Shown here piece after piece: positions 23,916 through 31,110 of a stretch of 64,000 nucleotides of DNA (its first letter is position 1; each line of letters starts with the position of its first letter). The position numbers were made by a program, and so were the translations under genes. The notes under the pieces are model-generated. The model did not search any database. It had not been told where the DNA came from and saw only the letters and a list, made by a program, of their open reading frames with translations. The stretch comes from Pseudomonas sp. KU26590 (lineage in GTDB: Bacteria; Pseudomonadota; Gammaproteobacteria; Pseudomonadales; Pseudomonadaceae). Location: positions 3,253,501 through 3,317,500 of the forward strand of contig NZ_CP110644.1 in assembly GCF_026153515.1 (NCBI RefSeq). The letters run 5' to 3'.

Positions 23916-24947
23916 ATGAGTGACCTGAAAGACGTTGCACGGGTGGCCGGGGTTTCCAGAGCGACCGCTGCCCGTTGTTTCGCCTCCCCCGGAGTGGTAC
24001 GCCCGACGACCCGCGACCAGGTATTCGCCGCCGCTCGAGAGCTAGGTTTTCGACCCAATCTGCTCGGCCGTCAGTTGCGCCTGCAAACCACCCAGCTCAT
24101 TGGCGTGGTCGTGCCGAGCCTGCTCAACCCGGTGTTCGCCGAACAATTTCAAGCCATGGAACGCGCCGCGCGGTTGCGGGGCTACAACCTGCTGCTGGCG
24201 ACCACCGATTACAGCGCCGAGCGAGAAAGCGCAGTGGTTGAAGAATTACTGCGCCAGCGTGTAGACGGCCTCGTCCTCACCGTGACCGACGCCCACAGCA
24301 ATCGCGTGCTGCAAAGCCTGAGCACCGAAGACACGCCCTTTGTCCTCGCCTATCACCAGCCCGGCAGCACCGAATACAGCGCCGTCTCGGTAGACAACCG
24401 TGCCGGCATGGCTCTGGCCACGCGTTATCTGCTGGACGCCGGTCATCGACGCATCGGTATGGTCGCCGGGCCGACGCTGCAGTCCGACCGGGCGCGGCAG
24501 CGTTATGCCGGCTACTGCGACGCCATGGTTGAACACCGCTTGAACGCGATGCCCATCATCGAAATGCCCAGCCACACCCAGGCCGATTTCAGCGCGCTCG
24601 CGCCGCTGTTAAACGGCCCTCAAGCCCCCACAGCGCTGGTCTGCTCCAACGACCTGCTGGCGATCAGCCTGATCGCCGAACTGCGCCGCCACGGATGGGC
24701 GGTCCCGCAGCAACTGTCGATCATCGGTTTCGACGGCATCGAGATCGGCACCCAGATGCACCCGACGCTGTGCAGCGTGGTCCAGCCCATCGGCGCGCTG
24801 GCGACCACCGTCATTGATCAATTGCTGGCGCAGATTGCTGGCGCCGTCCCGACTTCCCATTGCCTGCCGTGCCACATCCGGCCGGGCGAAAGCACTCAAC
24901 CCTACAATCAGCCCTACGAGGAGACGCTCCATGATCCGCTTCAGTAA
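23916..24947 (+). CDS. LacI-family transcriptional regulator
   Basis: The 343-residue product has the LacI HTH (LKDVARVAGVSRATAARCFA), the hinge region (ELGFRPNLLGRQLRLQTTQL) and a periplasmic-binding-like sugar/effector domain ending LSIIGFDGIEIGTQMHPTL. Its 3' end overlaps the start of the ABC substrate-binding gene by 17 bases, so it is the first gene of the transporter operon and probably its repressor. The inducer would be the transported compound or a derivative of it. Confidence 0.93.
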   Translation: MSDLKDVARVAGVSRATAARCFASPGVVRPTTRDQVFAAARELGFRPNLLGRQLRLQTTQLIGVVVPSLLNPVFAEQFQAMERAARLRGYNLLLATTDYSAERESAVVEELLRQRVDGLVLTVTDAHSNRVLQSLSTEDTPFVLAYHQPGSTEYSAVSVDNRAGMALATRYLLDAGHRRIGMVAGPTLQSDRARQRYAGYCDAMVEHRLNAMPIIEMPSHTQADFSALAPLLNGPQAPTALVCSNDLLAISLIAELRRHGWAVPQQLSIIGFDGIEIGTQMHPTLCSVVQPIGALATTVIDQLLAQIAGAVPTSHCLPCHIRPGESTQPYNQPYEETLHDPLQ

Positions 24948-25935
24948 AACCCTGGCGGCACTGCTGCTGTGTGGCGTAGCCAGCCTGACCCAGGCCGCCG
25001 AAACCGCCATCTGCTACAACTGCCCGCCGGAATGGGCGGACTGGGGTACCCAGCTCAAGGCGATTGCCGACAGCACCGGCGTGCAGGTGCCGCTCGACAA
25101 CAAGAACTCCGGGCAGTCACTGGCACAGCTCGTGGCGGAAAAAGCCGCACCGGTGGCGGACGTGGTGTATTACGGCGTGACCTTCGGCTTGCAGGCGCAG
25201 AAAGCCGGCGTCGTCGGCACCTACAAACCCAAGGGCTGGGAGCAGATTCCCCCAGGTCTGAAAGACCCGGAAGGGTACTGGTTCGCGATTCACTCCGGTA
25301 CCCTGGGAATCATGGTCAACGTCGATGCACTGGGTGGCTTGCCGGTCCCGCAAAGCTGGGCTGATCTGCTCAAGCCGGAATACAAAGGCATGGTCGGTTA
25401 CCTCGATCCGTCCAGCGCCTTTGTCGGCTACGTCTCCGCTGTGGCGATCAACCAGGCCATGGGCGGCACCCTGGATAACTTCGCGCCGGCCATCGACTAC
25501 TTCCAGAAACTGGCGAAGAACTCACCGATCGTGCCCAAGCAAACCGCTTATGCGCGAGTGCTGTCTGGTGAGCTGCCAATCCTGGTGGATTACGATTTCA
25601 ACGCCTACCGCGCCCGCTACAAGGACAAGGCCAACGTCGCCTTCGTCATCCCGAAGGAGGGCAGCATCAGCGTGCCCTACGTGATGAGTCTGGTCGCCAA
25701 TGCCCCGCATCAGGCCAACGCCGAGAAGGTGCTGGATTTCGTCCTCTCCGAGCAGGGCCAGGCGTTGTGGGCCAAGGCGTATCTGCGTCCGGTGCGCACC
25801 ATGAAGATGCCGGCTGACGTGGCGGCGCAGTTTCTGCCGGACAGCGATTACGCCCGCGCCGGCGTGGTCGATTACCAGCACATGGCCGATGTCCAGGAAG
25901 CCTTCGCCGCGCGCTACCTGAGCGAGGTCAAGTAA
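24931..25935 (+). CDS. ABC transporter periplasmic substrate-binding protein
   Basis: The 334-residue product has a signal peptide (LAALLLCGVASLTQA) and a type II binding-protein fold of the iron(III)/spermidine/aminoethylphosphonate group. Recognisable stretches are ICYNCPPEWADWGTQL, FAIHSGTLGIMVNVDALGG and AKAYLRPVRTMKMPADV. GAGGAG precedes the ATG at 24931, inside the 3' end of the LacI gene. The ligand cannot be read from the sequence. The operon's phosphodiesterase suggests a phosphodiester or other phosphorylated compound. Confidence 0.9.
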   Translation: MIRFSKTLAALLLCGVASLTQAAETAICYNCPPEWADWGTQLKAIADSTGVQVPLDNKNSGQSLAQLVAEKAAPVADVVYYGVTFGLQAQKAGVVGTYKPKGWEQIPPGLKDPEGYWFAIHSGTLGIMVNVDALGGLPVPQSWADLLKPEYKGMVGYLDPSSAFVGYVSAVAINQAMGGTLDNFAPAIDYFQKLAKNSPIVPKQTAYARVLSGELPILVDYDFNAYRARYKDKANVAFVIPKEGSISVPYVMSLVANAPHQANAEKVLDFVLSEQGQALWAKAYLRPVRTMKMPADVAAQFLPDSDYARAGVVDYQHMADVQEAFAARYLSEVK

Positions 25936-26805
25936 GTGAGCAGCACGGTTTTGAAGGCGCAGGATGCCCGCGCGCGCGGGTCTCTGACAGGGCGTCTGCG
26001 TCCGACGTCGGCCTGGGCACTGGCGCCAGCAGCGGCAGTTTTGGCGGCGTTCTGGCTGTTACCGCTGGCGCACCTCATATTGCTCGGCGGACAGCAACGG
26101 GACGGCGCCGGCAGCGGTTATTGGCAAGTGCTCAGCAGCCCGCAGTACCTGGGCAGCCTGGCGCAAACCTGTGTGCTCGCGGCGGTGGTGACCTTCGCCG
26201 CGCTGTTGGTCGGCGGCATCACCGGCGTGTTTCTCGCCCGTCAGCGCTTTTTCGGGCGCACGACGCTGGTGGCGCTGCTGACGTTTCCGTTGGCGTTTCC
26301 CGGCGTGGTGGTGGGCTTTCTGGTGATTCTGCTGGCGGGGCGGCAAGGGCTGTTCGCCATGCTCGGCCTGAAACTGGCGGGTGAGCGCTGGGTGTTCGCC
26401 TATTCCCTGGCGGGGCTGTTCCTCGGCTACCTGTATTTTTCGATTCCCCGAGTGATCCTCACGATTATGGCCGCCTGCGAAAGCCTCGACCGCAGCCTGG
26501 AAGAAGCCGCGCATTCCCTCGGCGCCGGGCACTGGCGCGTGGTGTGTGACGTGATCATTCCCGGGCTGGCACCGGCTTTGGTGTCCTGCGGCGCGATCTG
26601 TTTTGCCACGTCCATGGGCGCGTTCGGCACCGCCTTCACCCTCGGCACTCAGCTGAACGTCACGCCCGTGGCGATCTACAACGTGTTCACCAACTACGCC
26701 AACTTCACTGTCGCGGCTGCGCTGTCGGTGGTGTTGGGCGCGCTGACCTGGGCGGTGTTGCTGCTCGCGCGGCGCATGGTCAAGCAATCGAGGACGGTCC
26801 TGTGA
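25936..26805 (+). CDS. ABC transporter permease (first)
   Basis: The 289-residue inner membrane protein has six predicted helices and the EAA loop EEAAHSLGAGHWRVVCDVII, which contacts the ATPase. The GTG start follows the stop codon of the binding protein directly. It pairs with the permease at 26802. This two-permease layout is that of the PotBC/PhnUV type of importer. Confidence 0.9.
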   Translation: MSSTVLKAQDARARGSLTGRLRPTSAWALAPAAAVLAAFWLLPLAHLILLGGQQRDGAGSGYWQVLSSPQYLGSLAQTCVLAAVVTFAALLVGGITGVFLARQRFFGRTTLVALLTFPLAFPGVVVGFLVILLAGRQGLFAMLGLKLAGERWVFAYSLAGLFLGYLYFSIPRVILTIMAACESLDRSLEEAAHSLGAGHWRVVCDVIIPGLAPALVSCGAICFATSMGAFGTAFTLGTQLNVTPVAIYNVFTNYANFTVAAALSVVLGALTWAVLLLARRMVKQSRTVL

Positions 26806-27596
26806 AGCGCTCATCGCTGTTCATCGCGCAACTGCTGTTCACGCTGCTGGTCTGCGCCTTCATGCTGGTGCCGGTGGTGATGTCGCTGCTGGCCGGCCTG
26901 ACGCGCAATTACTTTCAGGGCGTGTCCAGCGGTTTGACCTTCGACTGGATCGCGCAAGTCTGGCAGGCCTACTCGCCGACCGTCTGGCTCTCGCTGCAAC
27001 TGGCCTTCGCCTGCGCGGTGTGCGTCTGCGTGATCGGTGTACCGGCCGCGTATGCATTGGTGCGGGTGAACAACCTCTTCAGTCGCGCCTTCGAGGAATT
27101 GATGGTCTTGCCCGTCGCCATGCCCGGCCTCGCCAGCGCCCTGGCCCTGCTGCTGACCTACGGCCAGTTCGGCAGTTTCCGCAGCAGTTGGTTGTTCATC
27201 CTCGTCGGCCACGTGCTGTTCACACTGCCGTTTCTGGTGCGGCCGGTGATGGCGGTGATGCAGCGTCAACATCTGCCAACGCTGGAGGAGGCCGCCGCGA
27301 GTCTTGGCGCCGGGCCGCTGCGACGGTTTTTCAGCGTCGTGGTGCCCAACTGCCGGGCGGGGATTCTCGCCGGCGTGCTCATGGTGGTGACGCTGTCCCT
27401 GGGTGAATTCAACCTGACGTGGATGCTGCACACGCCCATGACCAAAACCCTGCCGGTGGGGCTGGCGGACAGTTACGCCTCGGCGCGGCTGGAAGTCGCC
27501 AGCGCCTACACCCTCATATTTCTGTTGATGATCGTGCCGCTGCTGGTGGCGTTGCAGGCCATCAGCGCACGCCTTTCCCGTGGAGAGCAAAGATGA
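26802..27596 (+). CDS. ABC transporter permease (second)
   Basis: The 264-residue inner membrane protein has six predicted helices and the EAA loop EEAAASLGAGPLRRFFSVVV. Its GTG start overlaps the preceding stop by 4 bases (GTGA), and its stop overlaps the ATPase start (ATGA). It forms the heterodimeric channel with the upstream permease. Confidence 0.9.
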   Translation: MKRSSLFIAQLLFTLLVCAFMLVPVVMSLLAGLTRNYFQGVSSGLTFDWIAQVWQAYSPTVWLSLQLAFACAVCVCVIGVPAAYALVRVNNLFSRAFEELMVLPVAMPGLASALALLLTYGQFGSFRSSWLFILVGHVLFTLPFLVRPVMAVMQRQHLPTLEEAAASLGAGPLRRFFSVVVPNCRAGILAGVLMVVTLSLGEFNLTWMLHTPMTKTLPVGLADSYASARLEVASAYTLIFLLMIVPLLVALQAISARLSRGEQR

Positions 27597-28624
27597 CTGG
27601 AACCACGCTGCGGCTGATCGGCTGCCGCAAGGCCTTCGCCGACGGCACTGTCGCTGTTCACGACCTCAACCTGACCATCGAGGCAGGTGAGACCCTGGCG
27701 ATCCTTGGTCCGTCCGGATGCGGCAAAACCACCACGCTGCGGATGATCGCCGGCCTCGAACGCCCGGACGTCGGCCAGGTGTTCTTCGGCGATCAGGACG
27801 TCACTCGCCTCCCCATCGAGCGCCGCGACGTCGGCATGGTCTTTCAGAATTACGCGCTGTTCCCCAACCTGACGGTGGAAGGCAACATCGTGTATGGCCT
27901 GAAGGTGCGCGGCATGGCCGTCGCCGAGCGGAACAAGCGCTGCGCCGAACTGCTGGAACTGGTGGGCCTGCAAGAACACGCCAAGCGTGGCATTCATGAG
28001 CTGTCCGGTGGACAACGGCAGCGGGTGGCATTGGCCCGTGCCTTGGCGCCACGGCCGAAAGTCCTGCTGCTCGATGAACCGCTGGCCGCACTGGACGCGC
28101 AACTGCGTGAACGCCTGCGCAGCGAGCTCGATCAACTGCTGCGCGGCCTCGGCATCACGTCTGTGTTCGTCACCCACGATCAGGGCGAAGCCATGGCCCT
28201 TGGCGACCGGATTCTGGTCATGCAGCAAGGGCGCATCGCCCAGCTCGGCACGCCGCGGGAAATCTATCAGCAGCCGGCGAATCCGTTCGTGGCGAGCTTT
28301 GTCGGCAACCTCAACGCTTTTACGGTGGCTGGGCGCACGGTTAAGGGCCTGAAAGTCAGCGGCGGCGAACTGCCCTGGAGTGAGGCGGGTGAGCCGGCGA
28401 CGGTGTATTGCCGACCCGAGCATCTGCGGGTGGTGAAGAGCGAAGGGCACCTGCAAGGACGTTTGCTGGGCCAGTTTTTTCAGGGGGCGCAGAGCCGTTT
28501 GCTGATCGACGTCGGCGCGGCGCAACCGTTGCTGGTCGACAGCGCCGACAACGTCATTCATGCCCCGGGTGATCTGATCGCCCTGGCCATCGAGCCGCAG
28601 GCGCTGTTTGCCCTGCACCCGTAA
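27593..28624 (+). CDS. ABC transporter ATP-binding protein
   Basis: The 343-residue product has Walker A GPSGCGKTT, the signature LSGGQRQRVALARAL, Walker B VLLLDEPLAALD and the switch His in FVTHDQGEAMAL. A C-terminal TOBE-type domain follows from about residue 240. It belongs to the PotA/FbpC/MalK-like importer ATPases. ATG 27593 overlaps the permease stop. It energises the importer formed by the three preceding genes. Confidence 0.94.
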   Translation: MTGTTLRLIGCRKAFADGTVAVHDLNLTIEAGETLAILGPSGCGKTTTLRMIAGLERPDVGQVFFGDQDVTRLPIERRDVGMVFQNYALFPNLTVEGNIVYGLKVRGMAVAERNKRCAELLELVGLQEHAKRGIHELSGGQRQRVALARALAPRPKVLLLDEPLAALDAQLRERLRSELDQLLRGLGITSVFVTHDQGEAMALGDRILVMQQGRIAQLGTPREIYQQPANPFVASFVGNLNAFTVAGRTVKGLKVSGGELPWSEAGEPATVYCRPEHLRVVKSEGHLQGRLLGQFFQGAQSRLLIDVGAAQPLLVDSADNVIHAPGDLIALAIEPQALFALHP

Positions 28625-28646
28625 TCCTTGTTTAAGTGAGTTGAAT

Positions 28647-29480
28647 GTGAACGTCCCGTTTCTCGTCGCACAGATCAGCGACCTGCACCTTAAAGCCGGC
28701 AACAAGCTGACCTATGGCGTGGTCGACACCCTCGGCGCCTTGCGTCGAGCGGTTGATCATCTGAATGCCAGCACGCCGCGCCCGGACATCGTGGTGATCA
28801 GTGGCGATCTGGTGGATTTCGGTCGGCCGGATGAATACGCCGTCCTGCACCCCGAGCTGGCGTGTCTGAGCATGCCGTATTACCTGGTGCCCGGTAATCA
28901 CGACGTCCGCGAGCACCTGCTGGCTGAATTTGCCGATCACGTTTACTTGCCGCTCTGTCCCAACTCACCCCTGGATTGGGTCGTCGAAGAGCACCCGGTG
29001 CGCCTGATCGGACTGGATTCGACCATTCCGGGCGCCCACGGCGGACAAGTGCTGGACAGTCAGATGCGCTGGCTGGATGACGTGCTTGGCCGACGCCCCG
29101 ACGTGCCGACGCTGTTGATCATGCACCACCCGCCGTTTGTCACGGGGATCGGCCACATGGAACACGAGTCCTTCATCAACGGCGCGGCGCTGGAAGAAGT
29201 CATTAAACGCCACCCGCAAGTAGAGCGCGTTCTGTGCGGCCATCTGCATCGGCCGATGCAACGGCGCTTTGCCGGCAGCATCAGCTGCACCTGCCCGGGC
29301 ACTTCGCACCAGATCGTGCTCGACCTGCGCGAGGAAGCTCCGGCGCATTTCAACCTCGAACCGGCGGGCTACCTGCTGCATCGCTGGGATGCGGAGCGGG
29401 GCCTGGTGACCCACAACGGCGTGTTCGGCGATTACCCGGGGCCGTACCCGTTTTATGACGCGCAGGGGTTGATCGATTAG
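28647..29480 (+). CDS. GpdQ-like metallophosphodiesterase
   Basis: The 277-residue product is a calcineurin-type metallophosphoesterase of the class III/GpdQ group. It has all five metal-binding motifs: QISDLHL, SGDLVDFG, PGNHDVRE, MHHPPF and CGHLH. GpdQ hydrolyses glycerophosphodiesters, and relatives act on cyclic nucleotides. It is the last gene of the LacI/ABC operon, 22 bases after the ATPase. A likely role is cleavage of the imported phosphodiester in the cytoplasm; that is inference from position. The start is taken as GTG 28647, as no ATG fits the domain start. Confidence 0.9.
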   Translation: MNVPFLVAQISDLHLKAGNKLTYGVVDTLGALRRAVDHLNASTPRPDIVVISGDLVDFGRPDEYAVLHPELACLSMPYYLVPGNHDVREHLLAEFADHVYLPLCPNSPLDWVVEEHPVRLIGLDSTIPGAHGGQVLDSQMRWLDDVLGRRPDVPTLLIMHHPPFVTGIGHMEHESFINGAALEEVIKRHPQVERVLCGHLHRPMQRRFAGSISCTCPGTSHQIVLDLREEAPAHFNLEPAGYLLHRWDAERGLVTHNGVFGDYPGPYPFYDAQGLID

Positions 29481-29578: not shown

Positions 29579-29674
29579 CTATAATCAGTCTATAATTGCT
29601 CTATAATCACCTATAAACGCATATTTCACCCATATCTATAATTGGTCTATAGTCGTTCTATAATTGCCTATAAA
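29579..29674. repeat. eight CTATAAT-like repeats in two phased blocks
   Basis: CTATAAT or a one-base variant occurs at 29579, 29590, 29601, 29611, 29636, 29647, 29658 and 29668. Five copies are exact CTATAAT, two are CTATAAA and one is CTATAGT. The spacing is 11, 11, 10 in the first block, then 25, then 11, 11, 10 again. Both blocks therefore have one site per helical turn and the same internal layout, 57 bases apart. The array ends 20 bases before the ATPase start codon. It looks like a cooperative protein-binding array; each copy also contains or approximates the -10 hexamer TATAAT. Confidence 0.85.
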
Positions 29675-29694
29675 GCAGTGCCTGAGGTCTACAA

Positions 29695-30849
29695 ATGCCA
29701 GAAATCTTCTACCACCGTCCCGAGCTGGCTACCCGGCTCTCCAAGCTGATCATGCAGATATCTGTGGGCAGCTCGGCCAGCTCAGGCGTCTTCCTGGCGG
29801 CGCCAAGACGCACTGGCAAATCCACCTTCGCGCGTGAAGACCTGCGCCCTGCGCTGGAAAAAGCGGGGGCGATCGTGCTGTATGCCGACCTCTGGCAAGA
29901 CCTGACCAAAGACCCCGGCCTGGTCATCGTGGAAGCCATCCGCGAAGCGGTCGGCCGCAGTGACGGTTTCATTACCCGGCTTGCAAAGTCCTCCGGCATA
30001 GAGAGGGTGGTTGTGGGCGGGCTGAATTTCAGTCTGGATAAAATCGGTCTCGGCAAGGACATCGACCTCACCACTGCGCTGGTGGCGCTCTCCGATGAGT
30101 CGAAGAAGCTCATCGTTCTGATGATCGATGAAGCGCAGCACGCGATCACCACCGAGGCGGGTGTAGCGGCGCTGTTCGCGCTCAAGGCGGCAAGGGACGA
30201 GCTCAACAGCTCCCGGCACCATGGCCTGCGCATCGTCTGCACCGGCTCGAACCGGGACAAGCTGGCGATGCTGCGCAACAGCAAGGATCAGGCGTTCTTC
30301 GGGGCGTCGATGGTGCCGTTCCCGACGCTCGATCAAAACTACATTGACTGGCTGTGCGCCAACATTGACCTGCCATCACCGCTCGACCCGGCGGAGGTGT
30401 TCCAGCTCTTCAAAGAAAGTGGCTATCGCCCCGAACTGCTCGGTGCGGCGGCTGATGCCATCCGCTTTGACTTTTTCATTGACCCTCAAGACGTACCAGA
30501 GCGGTTTGCCGAGCTTGTTCGGGCGCAAGCGGATGAACTGAACGCGAACCTCAAGAAGGTGATCCACAGCCTCACCCCGATCCAGTCCGCCGTGATTCGC
30601 GTCATGGGCAGTATGGGCGACAGCTACGCCCCCTTCGAGGCGCCCACCATGGCGTTGTACGCCACAGCGCTGAAGCAGGCAGGCGTCGTAGAAAGTGAGA
30701 TCAAAGTTGAGGTGCCGGGTGTGCAACAAGCCCTCATTGCCCTGCAGGAAAAGAACCTGGTGTGGAAGGCTTCACGGGGTGTTTATGCGGTGGATGAGCA
30801 CGTGATCGTTGATCTGCTTCGCGCCGACGGGCTGCTGGAAGGTTTGTAG
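29695..30849 (+). CDS. orphan AAA+/STAND-type ATPase
   Basis: The 384-residue cytoplasmic protein has a P-loop ATPase domain of the archaeal-ATPase/AAA type, with Walker A APRRTGKSTF near residue 38 and Walker B LIVLMIDEAQ near residue 140. A sensor-like LRIVCTGSNRDKL follows. The C-terminal 110 residues look like a winged-helix module (LTPIQSAVIRVMGSM to EKNLVWKASRGVYAVDEHVI). No nuclease, protease or transmembrane part is visible. The function is unknown. GAGG lies before the ATG, and the phased repeat array immediately upstream suggests tight or cooperative control. A small HTH gene converges on its 3' end. Confidence 0.82.
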   Translation: MPEIFYHRPELATRLSKLIMQISVGSSASSGVFLAAPRRTGKSTFAREDLRPALEKAGAIVLYADLWQDLTKDPGLVIVEAIREAVGRSDGFITRLAKSSGIERVVVGGLNFSLDKIGLGKDIDLTTALVALSDESKKLIVLMIDEAQHAITTEAGVAALFALKAARDELNSSRHHGLRIVCTGSNRDKLAMLRNSKDQAFFGASMVPFPTLDQNYIDWLCANIDLPSPLDPAEVFQLFKESGYRPELLGAAADAIRFDFFIDPQDVPERFAELVRAQADELNANLKKVIHSLTPIQSAVIRVMGSMGDSYAPFEAPTMALYATALKQAGVVESEIKVEVPGVQQALIALQEKNLVWKASRGVYAVDEHVIVDLLRADGLLEGL

Positions 30850-30870: not shown

Positions 30871-31110
30871 TTACCTCTTGAGGGCTATGGCCTCTTGGAC
30901 AAGGCACTCAAGGGCGAACTGCTCGGTGTACGTCATCTGAATGGGCGTTGTTTCTCCCTTGACGGTTCTTTCGCCATCCAGGATGTAGCGGATGCGCTTG
31001 TCAGTCACACCGATACGCTTCGCGATCCATGAAGGCGTTTGGCCAATCCGCGAAATCAGCTTGTCGGCGTATTCGGTTGAAGGGTTATAGAGGTCTGCGT
31101 TGGGTGTCAT
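30871..31110 (-). CDS. small helix-turn-helix protein
   Basis: The 79-residue protein has a Cro/XRE-like HTH around residues 17-50: LISRIGQTPSWIAKRIGVTD, then KRIRYILDGERTVKGE. A hydrophobic helix follows (YTEQFALECLVQEA). It converges with the ATPase gene, with 21 bases between the two stops. It may regulate the ATPase through the CTATAAT array, but it does not carry that array before its own gene, so the link is a guess from proximity. The 159-base gap up to the GGDEF-EAL gene holds nothing else I can support. Confidence 0.75.
   Translation of the reverse strand: MTPNADLYNPSTEYADKLISRIGQTPSWIAKRIGVTDKRIRYILDGERTVKGETTPIQMTYTEQFALECLVQEAIALKR

Follow-up and report, generated by a model that had tools for sequence, protein, structure and literature searches.

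Several described systems share single features with the locus reported here. Archaeal Orc1/Cdc6 initiators have an AAA+ core and a C-terminal winged helix, and origin repeats lie next to their gene. MuB and TnsC are DNA-coating ATPases that are not known to use sequence arrays and that work with a transposase. Direct repeats of 11 bp occur in PhoB-type pho boxes and in parC of plasmid R1, the latter with two blocks beside a promoter. Herein, we analyzed a 64,000-nucleotide stretch of Pseudomonas sp. KU26590 (NZ_CP110644.1, positions 3,253,501 to 3,317,500; hereafter the window), in which an array of CTATAAT-like units directly precedes an ATPase gene. The encoded protein resembles archaeal Orc1/Cdc6 in its predicted AAA+ core and C-terminal winged helix. 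However, it is only 10-16% identical to its structural matches, and its repeats are 7-bp direct repeats placed one per helical turn in a bacterial promoter region. The archaeal ATPases SSO1545 and PABY2304, which are not known to have operator arrays, are a further point of comparison, although the score against Pfam family PF01637 (ATPase_2) is 14.5 bits, below the gathering cut-off of 33.2 bits. Unlike MuB and TnsC, no transposase is constant at the ATPase sites. Unlike the pho box and parC, the unit sequence and the reader families are different, and no second gene is constant among 13 sites.

GInt islands carry a short AT-rich 3' end beside a multi-recombinase operon (PMC5385486). A block of the same units away from any ATPase gene on the RW109 plasmid likewise lies 3' of a multi-recombinase operon, but the GInt passages contain no CTATA string (PMC5385486), and the ATPase array is promoter-proximal. 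We found no description of the unit string or its arrangement in the open PMC literature, mostly judged by title and the start of the abstract. The array probably works like a cooperative operator or a set of iterons.

The array upstream of the ATPase gene

The features of the locus are as follows.

29579 to 29617, + strand: block 1, with CTATAAT, CTATAAT, CTATAAT and CTATAAA at 29579, 29590, 29601 and 29611; spacing 11-11-10
29618 to 29635, no strand: linker between the blocks, 18 bp
29636 to 29674, + strand: block 2, with CTATAAT, CTATAGT, CTATAAT and CTATAAA at 29636, 29647, 29658 and 29668; spacing 11-11-10
29684 to 29687, + strand: Shine-Dalgarno-like GAGG, 7 bases upstream of the ATPase ATG, read from the sequence
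29695 to 30849, + strand: ATPase gene, 384 aa, with an Orc1/Cdc6/SSO1545-like AAA+ core, assigned from motif conservation, predicted structure and structure matches
29579 to 30849, + strand: conserved unit of array and ATPase gene; similarity between sites mostly runs from the array edge to the stop codon or near it

The array consists of eight units in two 39-bp blocks of four, whose starts are 57 bp apart. The last unit of block 1 and the first of block 2 are 25 bp apart across the linker, and 20 bases (29675-29694) separate the last unit from the ATG at 29695. The first-pass annotation had described two identical blocks. The spacing layout is the same in both, but their sequences are only 82% identical over the 39 bp. 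When up to three mismatches were allowed, the complete pattern of a block matched twice in the window and not once in 100 dinucleotide shuffles. In addition, CTATAATN4CTATA had three matches in the 6.18-Mb genome, all at the window array, and the reversed-pattern control had none. The array is therefore real and beyond chance.

The array is retained with the ATPase gene

A protein search of 249 Pseudomonas genomes gave a match in 81, own genome included, and in 15 of these the match was full-length with at least 60% identity. The orthologue set was enlarged with eleven named loci, plasmid matches (105 records) and a class-level sample (19 of 321, own genome included). We compared 31 upstream regions, from chromosomes and plasmids of gamma- and betaproteobacteria, whose proteins are 50-100% identical, using a lenient unit cut of 5.4 of 7. 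Omitted were L005 (same contig as L035), L042, L054 (a fragment with an array) and L085/G020 (a remnant); the near-identical rows L006/L039 and L009/L010 were kept. In L042, the gene match begins only at residue 107, and no array was found upstream of that point.

At least three units at a spacing of 10, 11 or 20 bp were present in 29 of the 31 upstream regions. Across the array-bearing orthologues, the last unit lies 10-54 bp before the start codon despite large divergence. Pseudomonas orthologues of 80-100% identity have two 11-11-10 blocks, with an inter-block unit distance of mostly 24-26 or 34 bp, and the Pseudomonas clade at 60% identity has a spacing of 10-10-10. A single short block, with units mostly 10 bp apart, is found in Variovorax, Cupriavidus, Polaromonas, another Comamonadaceae plasmid and a Burkholderiales contig. 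One orthologue (L013) has a single block, and no array was detected by the lenient unit score upstream of two others (L014 and L015).

The flanks behave differently. When 14 loci in nine Pseudomonas neighbourhoods were aligned pairwise, similarity mostly began at the edge of the array, roughly 115-125 bp upstream of the ATG, although for some pairs it began at block 2 or inside the ATPase gene. Between neighbourhoods, it ended no more than about 40 nt from the stop codon, and the exceptions outside array and gene were four stray nucleotide matches of 33-142 bp. Loci of the same neighbourhood aligned over kilobases or as far as the fetched sequence extended. Since similarity is mostly confined to array and gene and no neighbouring protein is found in more than three of 13 sites, we infer that the unit of array and ATPase gene has been relocated repeatedly with the array retained.

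These results fit what the first-pass annotation had named as a sign of function, conserved block spacing with diverged flanks, and its suggestion that a protein binds cooperatively along one DNA face. Because the spacing is kept with the gene in 29 of 31 upstream regions whereas the flanks are unrelated in nine neighbourhoods, these sequences are best read as a helix-phased array to which a protein binds cooperatively. Linkage of a site to its own regulator gene over long divergence is a trait of autoregulatory operators, and given that the array is kept with the gene across distant bacteria, it is very probably the switch of the ATPase gene, that is, an operator bound by some protein.

A generic repeat test was applied to 48 non-redundant upstream regions (from 75), the six later-fetched plasmid rows standing outside it. 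The mean was 5.4, whereas shuffled sequences averaged 3.7 and control regions 3.6, and 19 of the 48 reached p<0.05, uncorrected. Singly significant were 11 of 15 orthologues (the others being L013, L014, L015 and L044) and 8 of 33 distant paralogues. The more distant groups have other AT-rich repeats before the gene; co-divergence of array and protein there is only suggestive.

Unit grammar

The rules of the array were counted in 34 ATPase blocks, some of which are shortened at degenerate units by the chain rule. The last spacing was 10 in 32 of the 34 blocks, and the other spacings were 11 in 61 of 62 cases. Positions 8-11, which are outside the search pattern, were also constrained (C 75%, G/A 91%, C/G 83%, T 100%), and a T preceded the next unit in all 52 eleven-bp steps. 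The penultimate unit ended in AT in 29 of 34 blocks and the last unit in A in 30 of 34.

The ATPase and its predicted fold

Two regions of the protein are relevant to DNA binding and ATP use.

29803 to 29826, + strand: Walker A region PRRTGKST, residues 37-44, from the alignment of 26 family members
30577 to 30825, + strand: C-terminal winged-helix region, residues 295-377, candidate DNA reader, from the predicted model

Walker B (LMIDEAQ) is located at residues 142-148. R38, R39, G41, K42, L142, D145, E146 and Q148 are invariant in the 26 family members, as are the GK, DE and GS columns, which we take to be Walker A, Walker B and the sensor of an AAA+ ATPase. In the predicted model, a winged helix follows the lid, with helices at 295-310, 316-328, 340-352 and 368-377. 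The mean predicted local distance difference test score (pLDDT) per ten residues is 83-91 for residues 291-350 and 88 for 371-380, and 60-63 for 351-370, so the wing itself is of low confidence. Among the folds covered by the structure lists, the top matches include 1w5t, 1w5s, 2v1u and 2qby. The predicted architecture places the protein with the Orc1/Cdc6-SSO1545-like AAA+ ATPases that end in a winged helix; since the PF01637 cut-off was missed, we file it as a relative and not as a member of that family.

In the protein search, 2,651 of 7,999 candidates scored as relatives, and the names among the 120 relatives listed were only of the kinds 'ATP-binding protein', 'ATPase' and 'hypothetical protein'. 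The Walker-A pattern gave 34 stretches in viral contigs, none of which was confirmed as a relative. The short pattern had 58 viral matches, and neither ATPase relatives nor array DNA was found in the phages searched. Membership in a defence system was considered and set aside, as PADLOC yielded only a weak mad8 match (E 3e-4).

A proposed self-reading ATPase

The most likely single reader of the operator is the ATPase itself, although whether it is the reader is, in our judgement, an evenly balanced matter. In such a mechanism, each 11-bp unit (T-CTATART-C-N-N) would provide a single contact for the protein at every turn of the helix, four units would together form one cooperative assembly, and the terminal CTATARA unit at 10-bp spacing would mark the end of the block. 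The C-terminal winged helix would bind the units, one per helical turn, and the AAA+ parts would line up next to each other on the same face of the DNA, depending on the bound nucleotide. The ATPase may thereby shut or tune its own promoter. A self-reading ATPase would explain the phasing, the blocks of four, the end unit, the linkage to the gene across the distance between classes, the clade-dependent spacing and the overlap of units with the promoter in a paralogue group.

This last point concerns the second family member of the same genome (G000:C1:760148-761206; L063, L069), which is 40% identical to the ATPase. In all 16 upstream regions examined of its group, reversed units (ATTATAG or similar, ATTATAC) lie over TTGAC-N17-TATACT. 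After them come CTATAAT, CTATAAA or CCATAAA, and then GTATAAA right before the start. These units are similar to those of the window array, reoriented, over a sigma-70-like promoter. Similar units laid out differently over a promoter would be the expected trace of an autorepressor. The conservation of TTGAC is partly coding, as it overlaps the stop codon of the upstream gene.

Stand-alone blocks and the possibility of another reader

The units are not confined to ATPase genes. Stand-alone blocks were located by exact pattern, so that decayed ones are missed. The three-unit pattern was present in 27 of 249 Pseudomonas genomes, and the reversed-pattern control was present in none. In nine genomes it lay at intact ATPase genes, in one (G020) at an ATPase remnant, and in 17 there were 19 blocks elsewhere. 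G245, which is among the 17, does encode an ATPase orthologue, but one that lacks the array. A profile search of 16 of these 17 genomes gave family matches in only three (two full paralogues and one partial match, in G054) and none detectable in 13; controls without an array gave 0 of 16. This is the main evidence against the ATPase as the only reader: a self-reading ATPase leaves the blocks in ATPase-free genomes unexplained. As no family member was detectable in most of the stand-alone-block genomes tested, two further possibilities need to be weighed, a second reader and targets for a mobile ATPase. The blocks may be leftovers, targets for an incoming plasmid-borne ATPase or sites of another reader.

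In the alternative that survives best, the ATPase array and the stand-alone blocks would have one reader in common, another trans factor that is widespread in Pseudomonas or carried by plasmids, and the ATPase gene would be one of its targets. The stand-alone blocks follow the grammar of the array (25 of 27 have a last spacing of 10), their units are purer (C at position 8 in 32 of 32), and up to seven clean copies stand in a row (G004), so that they look alive. They sit mostly in genomes without the ATPase family, and at the site shared by G193 and G054 the block is nearly identical while the adjoining intergenic DNA differs. However, no recurrent neighbour gene and no candidate reader was found, and the specificity would have to be common to gamma- and betaproteobacteria. 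Moreover, the spacing tracks the ATPase clade within one genus (10-10-10 at 60%, 11-11-10 at 80-100%), which a common host reader does not explain. We consider a second reader possible but somewhat doubtful.

An improbable variant of the self-reading ATPase is a mobile, self-marking DNA-coating module, in which the Orc/Cdc6-like ATPase would assemble on its own promoter array and then on scattered stand-alone blocks. Its arrival would switch or mark blocks in accessory regions and plasmids, whether for chromatin-like control, to choose targets or as a minimal initiator with iterons.

Surroundings of the blocks and recombination

Flanks of stand-alone blocks are shared at three sites, in two genomes each (G193/G054, G220/G049 and G226/G045). 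At the G220/G049 site, unit number and spacers have changed and the grammar is kept. Short flank pieces are shared by G005/G213, G213/G245 and G213/G167; at the other blocks, the common sequence is the block itself plus at most short adjoining bases. One site is occupied differently in two genomes. P. reidholzensis (L041) has two blocks and the ATPase, and G217 (86% complete) has one block (G217:C1:2336644-2336669; L106, L223) and no ATPase, with flanks 87-90% identical over kilobases.

On plasmids, blocks lie 3' of tnpS-like recombinase genes in pWW0, pQBR55, pHS17-127, pPHE24, pFIDG-26323 and pPNP1, with conserved flanks. In pWW0 (L234 3999-4060), a conserved stretch of about 100 bp with CTATAAT units follows the tnpS-like gene, and its flanks appear partly inverted by eye. 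With E no higher than 0.1, a 67-bp pWW0 stretch matched 42 plasmid records, and in 15 of these the match covered at least 80% of its length. A P. veronii plasmid (L182 11216-14293) has a tnpS-like gene, then DUF5131 and TcmP (three-Cys-motif partner) genes, then a many-unit block, and a G004 contig (L222) has the same layout with seven clean units.

Other stand-alone blocks were seen near an Avs2-like gene (L225 308-4456, G229), an AbiEi/DUF6088 gene (L216 5197-5802, G193), and TniQ and reverse transcriptase genes. A block directly follows an MvaT-family gene in G220 (L218 5499-5891) and its homologue in G049, and on pPUV-3 a block is 143 bp from such a gene. Ten open reading frames were chosen per neighbour search from 116 listed, and no enrichment is claimed.

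Could the blocks be recombination or attachment sites, that is, ends or targets of mobile elements with the ATPase unit as cargo or helper? The nine neighbourhoods of array and gene, the P. reidholzensis/G217 site, the plasmid blocks 3' of tnpS-like genes or the RW109 recombinase operon with one partly inverted flank family, and four chromosomal blocks 2-25 kb from a tnpS-like gene (G004, G054, G193 and G049) are in its favour. Nevertheless, we think it quite unlikely: the last unit keeps a promoter-like position before the ATPase ATG over large divergence, none of 30 fetched tnpS-like loci had a three-unit chain within about 1.5 kb, and the left and right junctions of G217 do not match cleanly. 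Nor does the array qualify as a transposon end, as no transposase is constantly linked to it within the 1.5-5 kb flanks of the 13 ATPase sites and tnpS-like genes are found at some plasmid blocks only.

The tnpS-like tyrosine recombinase is uninformative as a candidate reader. Homologues are present in 191 of 249 Pseudomonas genomes, G000:C1:3642743-3643669 included, mostly with one match per genome; the full-length matches listed are 64-91% identical to that of pPNP1. Counting G020, there are 18 genomes in which a block lies apart from an intact ATPase gene; the homologue is strong in 17 of them and weak in G180.

Neighbours of the ATPase gene

When proteins encoded in the flanks (1.5-5 kb) were compared across the 13 ATPase sites, 12 matches between sites emerged, and no protein was found in more than three of these sites. 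A plasmid partition centromere of the parC type, in which an adaptor gene and a cytomotive ATPase gene would adjoin the repeats, was rejected, the ATPase being Orc-like and no second gene constant among the 13 sites.

30871 to 31110, convergent to the ATPase gene: 79-aa helix-turn-helix protein, with 50 homologues, some named VapI-like antidote

This small protein had been proposed as a binder of the array. Among loci L004-L044, it stands beside the ATPase in seven. These seven, which include the window itself and a duplicate contig, represent a single chromosomal site of the P. graminis group, and at the remaining array-bearing loci the protein was absent from the 1.5-5 kb of flank fetched. 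A role as binder of the array is not supported.

In Polaromonas pPNAP01 (L241 2492-3661), ATPase gene and array lie between genes annotated pglW and pglX, within a BREX-2 cluster. In L007, the array begins about 30 bp from the end of a glmS-like gene, presumably glmS as judged from its start. Two lone blocks (L229, L231) are 2-3 kb from a homologue of this gene, with TniQ genes between; an ATPase array and two lone blocks near the same gene suggest that the region may be a shared hot spot. Related ABC-transporter genes stand beside two ATPase sites (window 24694-28700, L041 7100-11150), on opposite sides of the ATPase and with no common nucleotide flank, and may be there by chance.

Promoter elements and silencers

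The first-pass annotation had also raised the possibility of overlapping -10 elements, kept silent by a bound protein. On such a reading, sigma-70 RNA polymerase would take the units as promoters or pause sites. The hexamers TATAAT and TATAGT fit, and the window has one weak promoter match, TTCACC-17-TATAGT (9 of 12 positions; 1 found, 0.4 expected). Against this, bases outside the hexamer are conserved, and the terminal units mostly have A at position 6 of the -10 element, where a sigma-70 promoter array would have T in every unit. The -35 partner is also missing, as TTGAC-N16-18-TA[TC]A[AG]T occurs in none of the 31 orthologue upstream regions. Furthermore, block 1, block 2 and blocks remote from any ATPase gene follow the same grammar, which points to the rule of a binding protein rather than to transcription starts. 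The idea now has little to commend it, and by these tests the array is not a sigma-70 promoter array.

MvaT/H-NS-type silencers prefer TpA-rich DNA, and phased minor grooves with two TpA steps per unit might attract them or bend the DNA, which the blocks near MvaT-family genes would suit, but the G/C-containing spacer bases are conserved, and we hold this to be very improbable.

Significance of the array

The stand-alone blocks pose the question of what reads the 11-11-10 code where the ATPase is missing, and the motif permits hidden target sites to be listed. For the ATPase family, the array gives a concrete DNA address. It also offers a way to ask whether bacteria use ATPases of the Orc/Cdc6-like kind as sequence-specific regulators.
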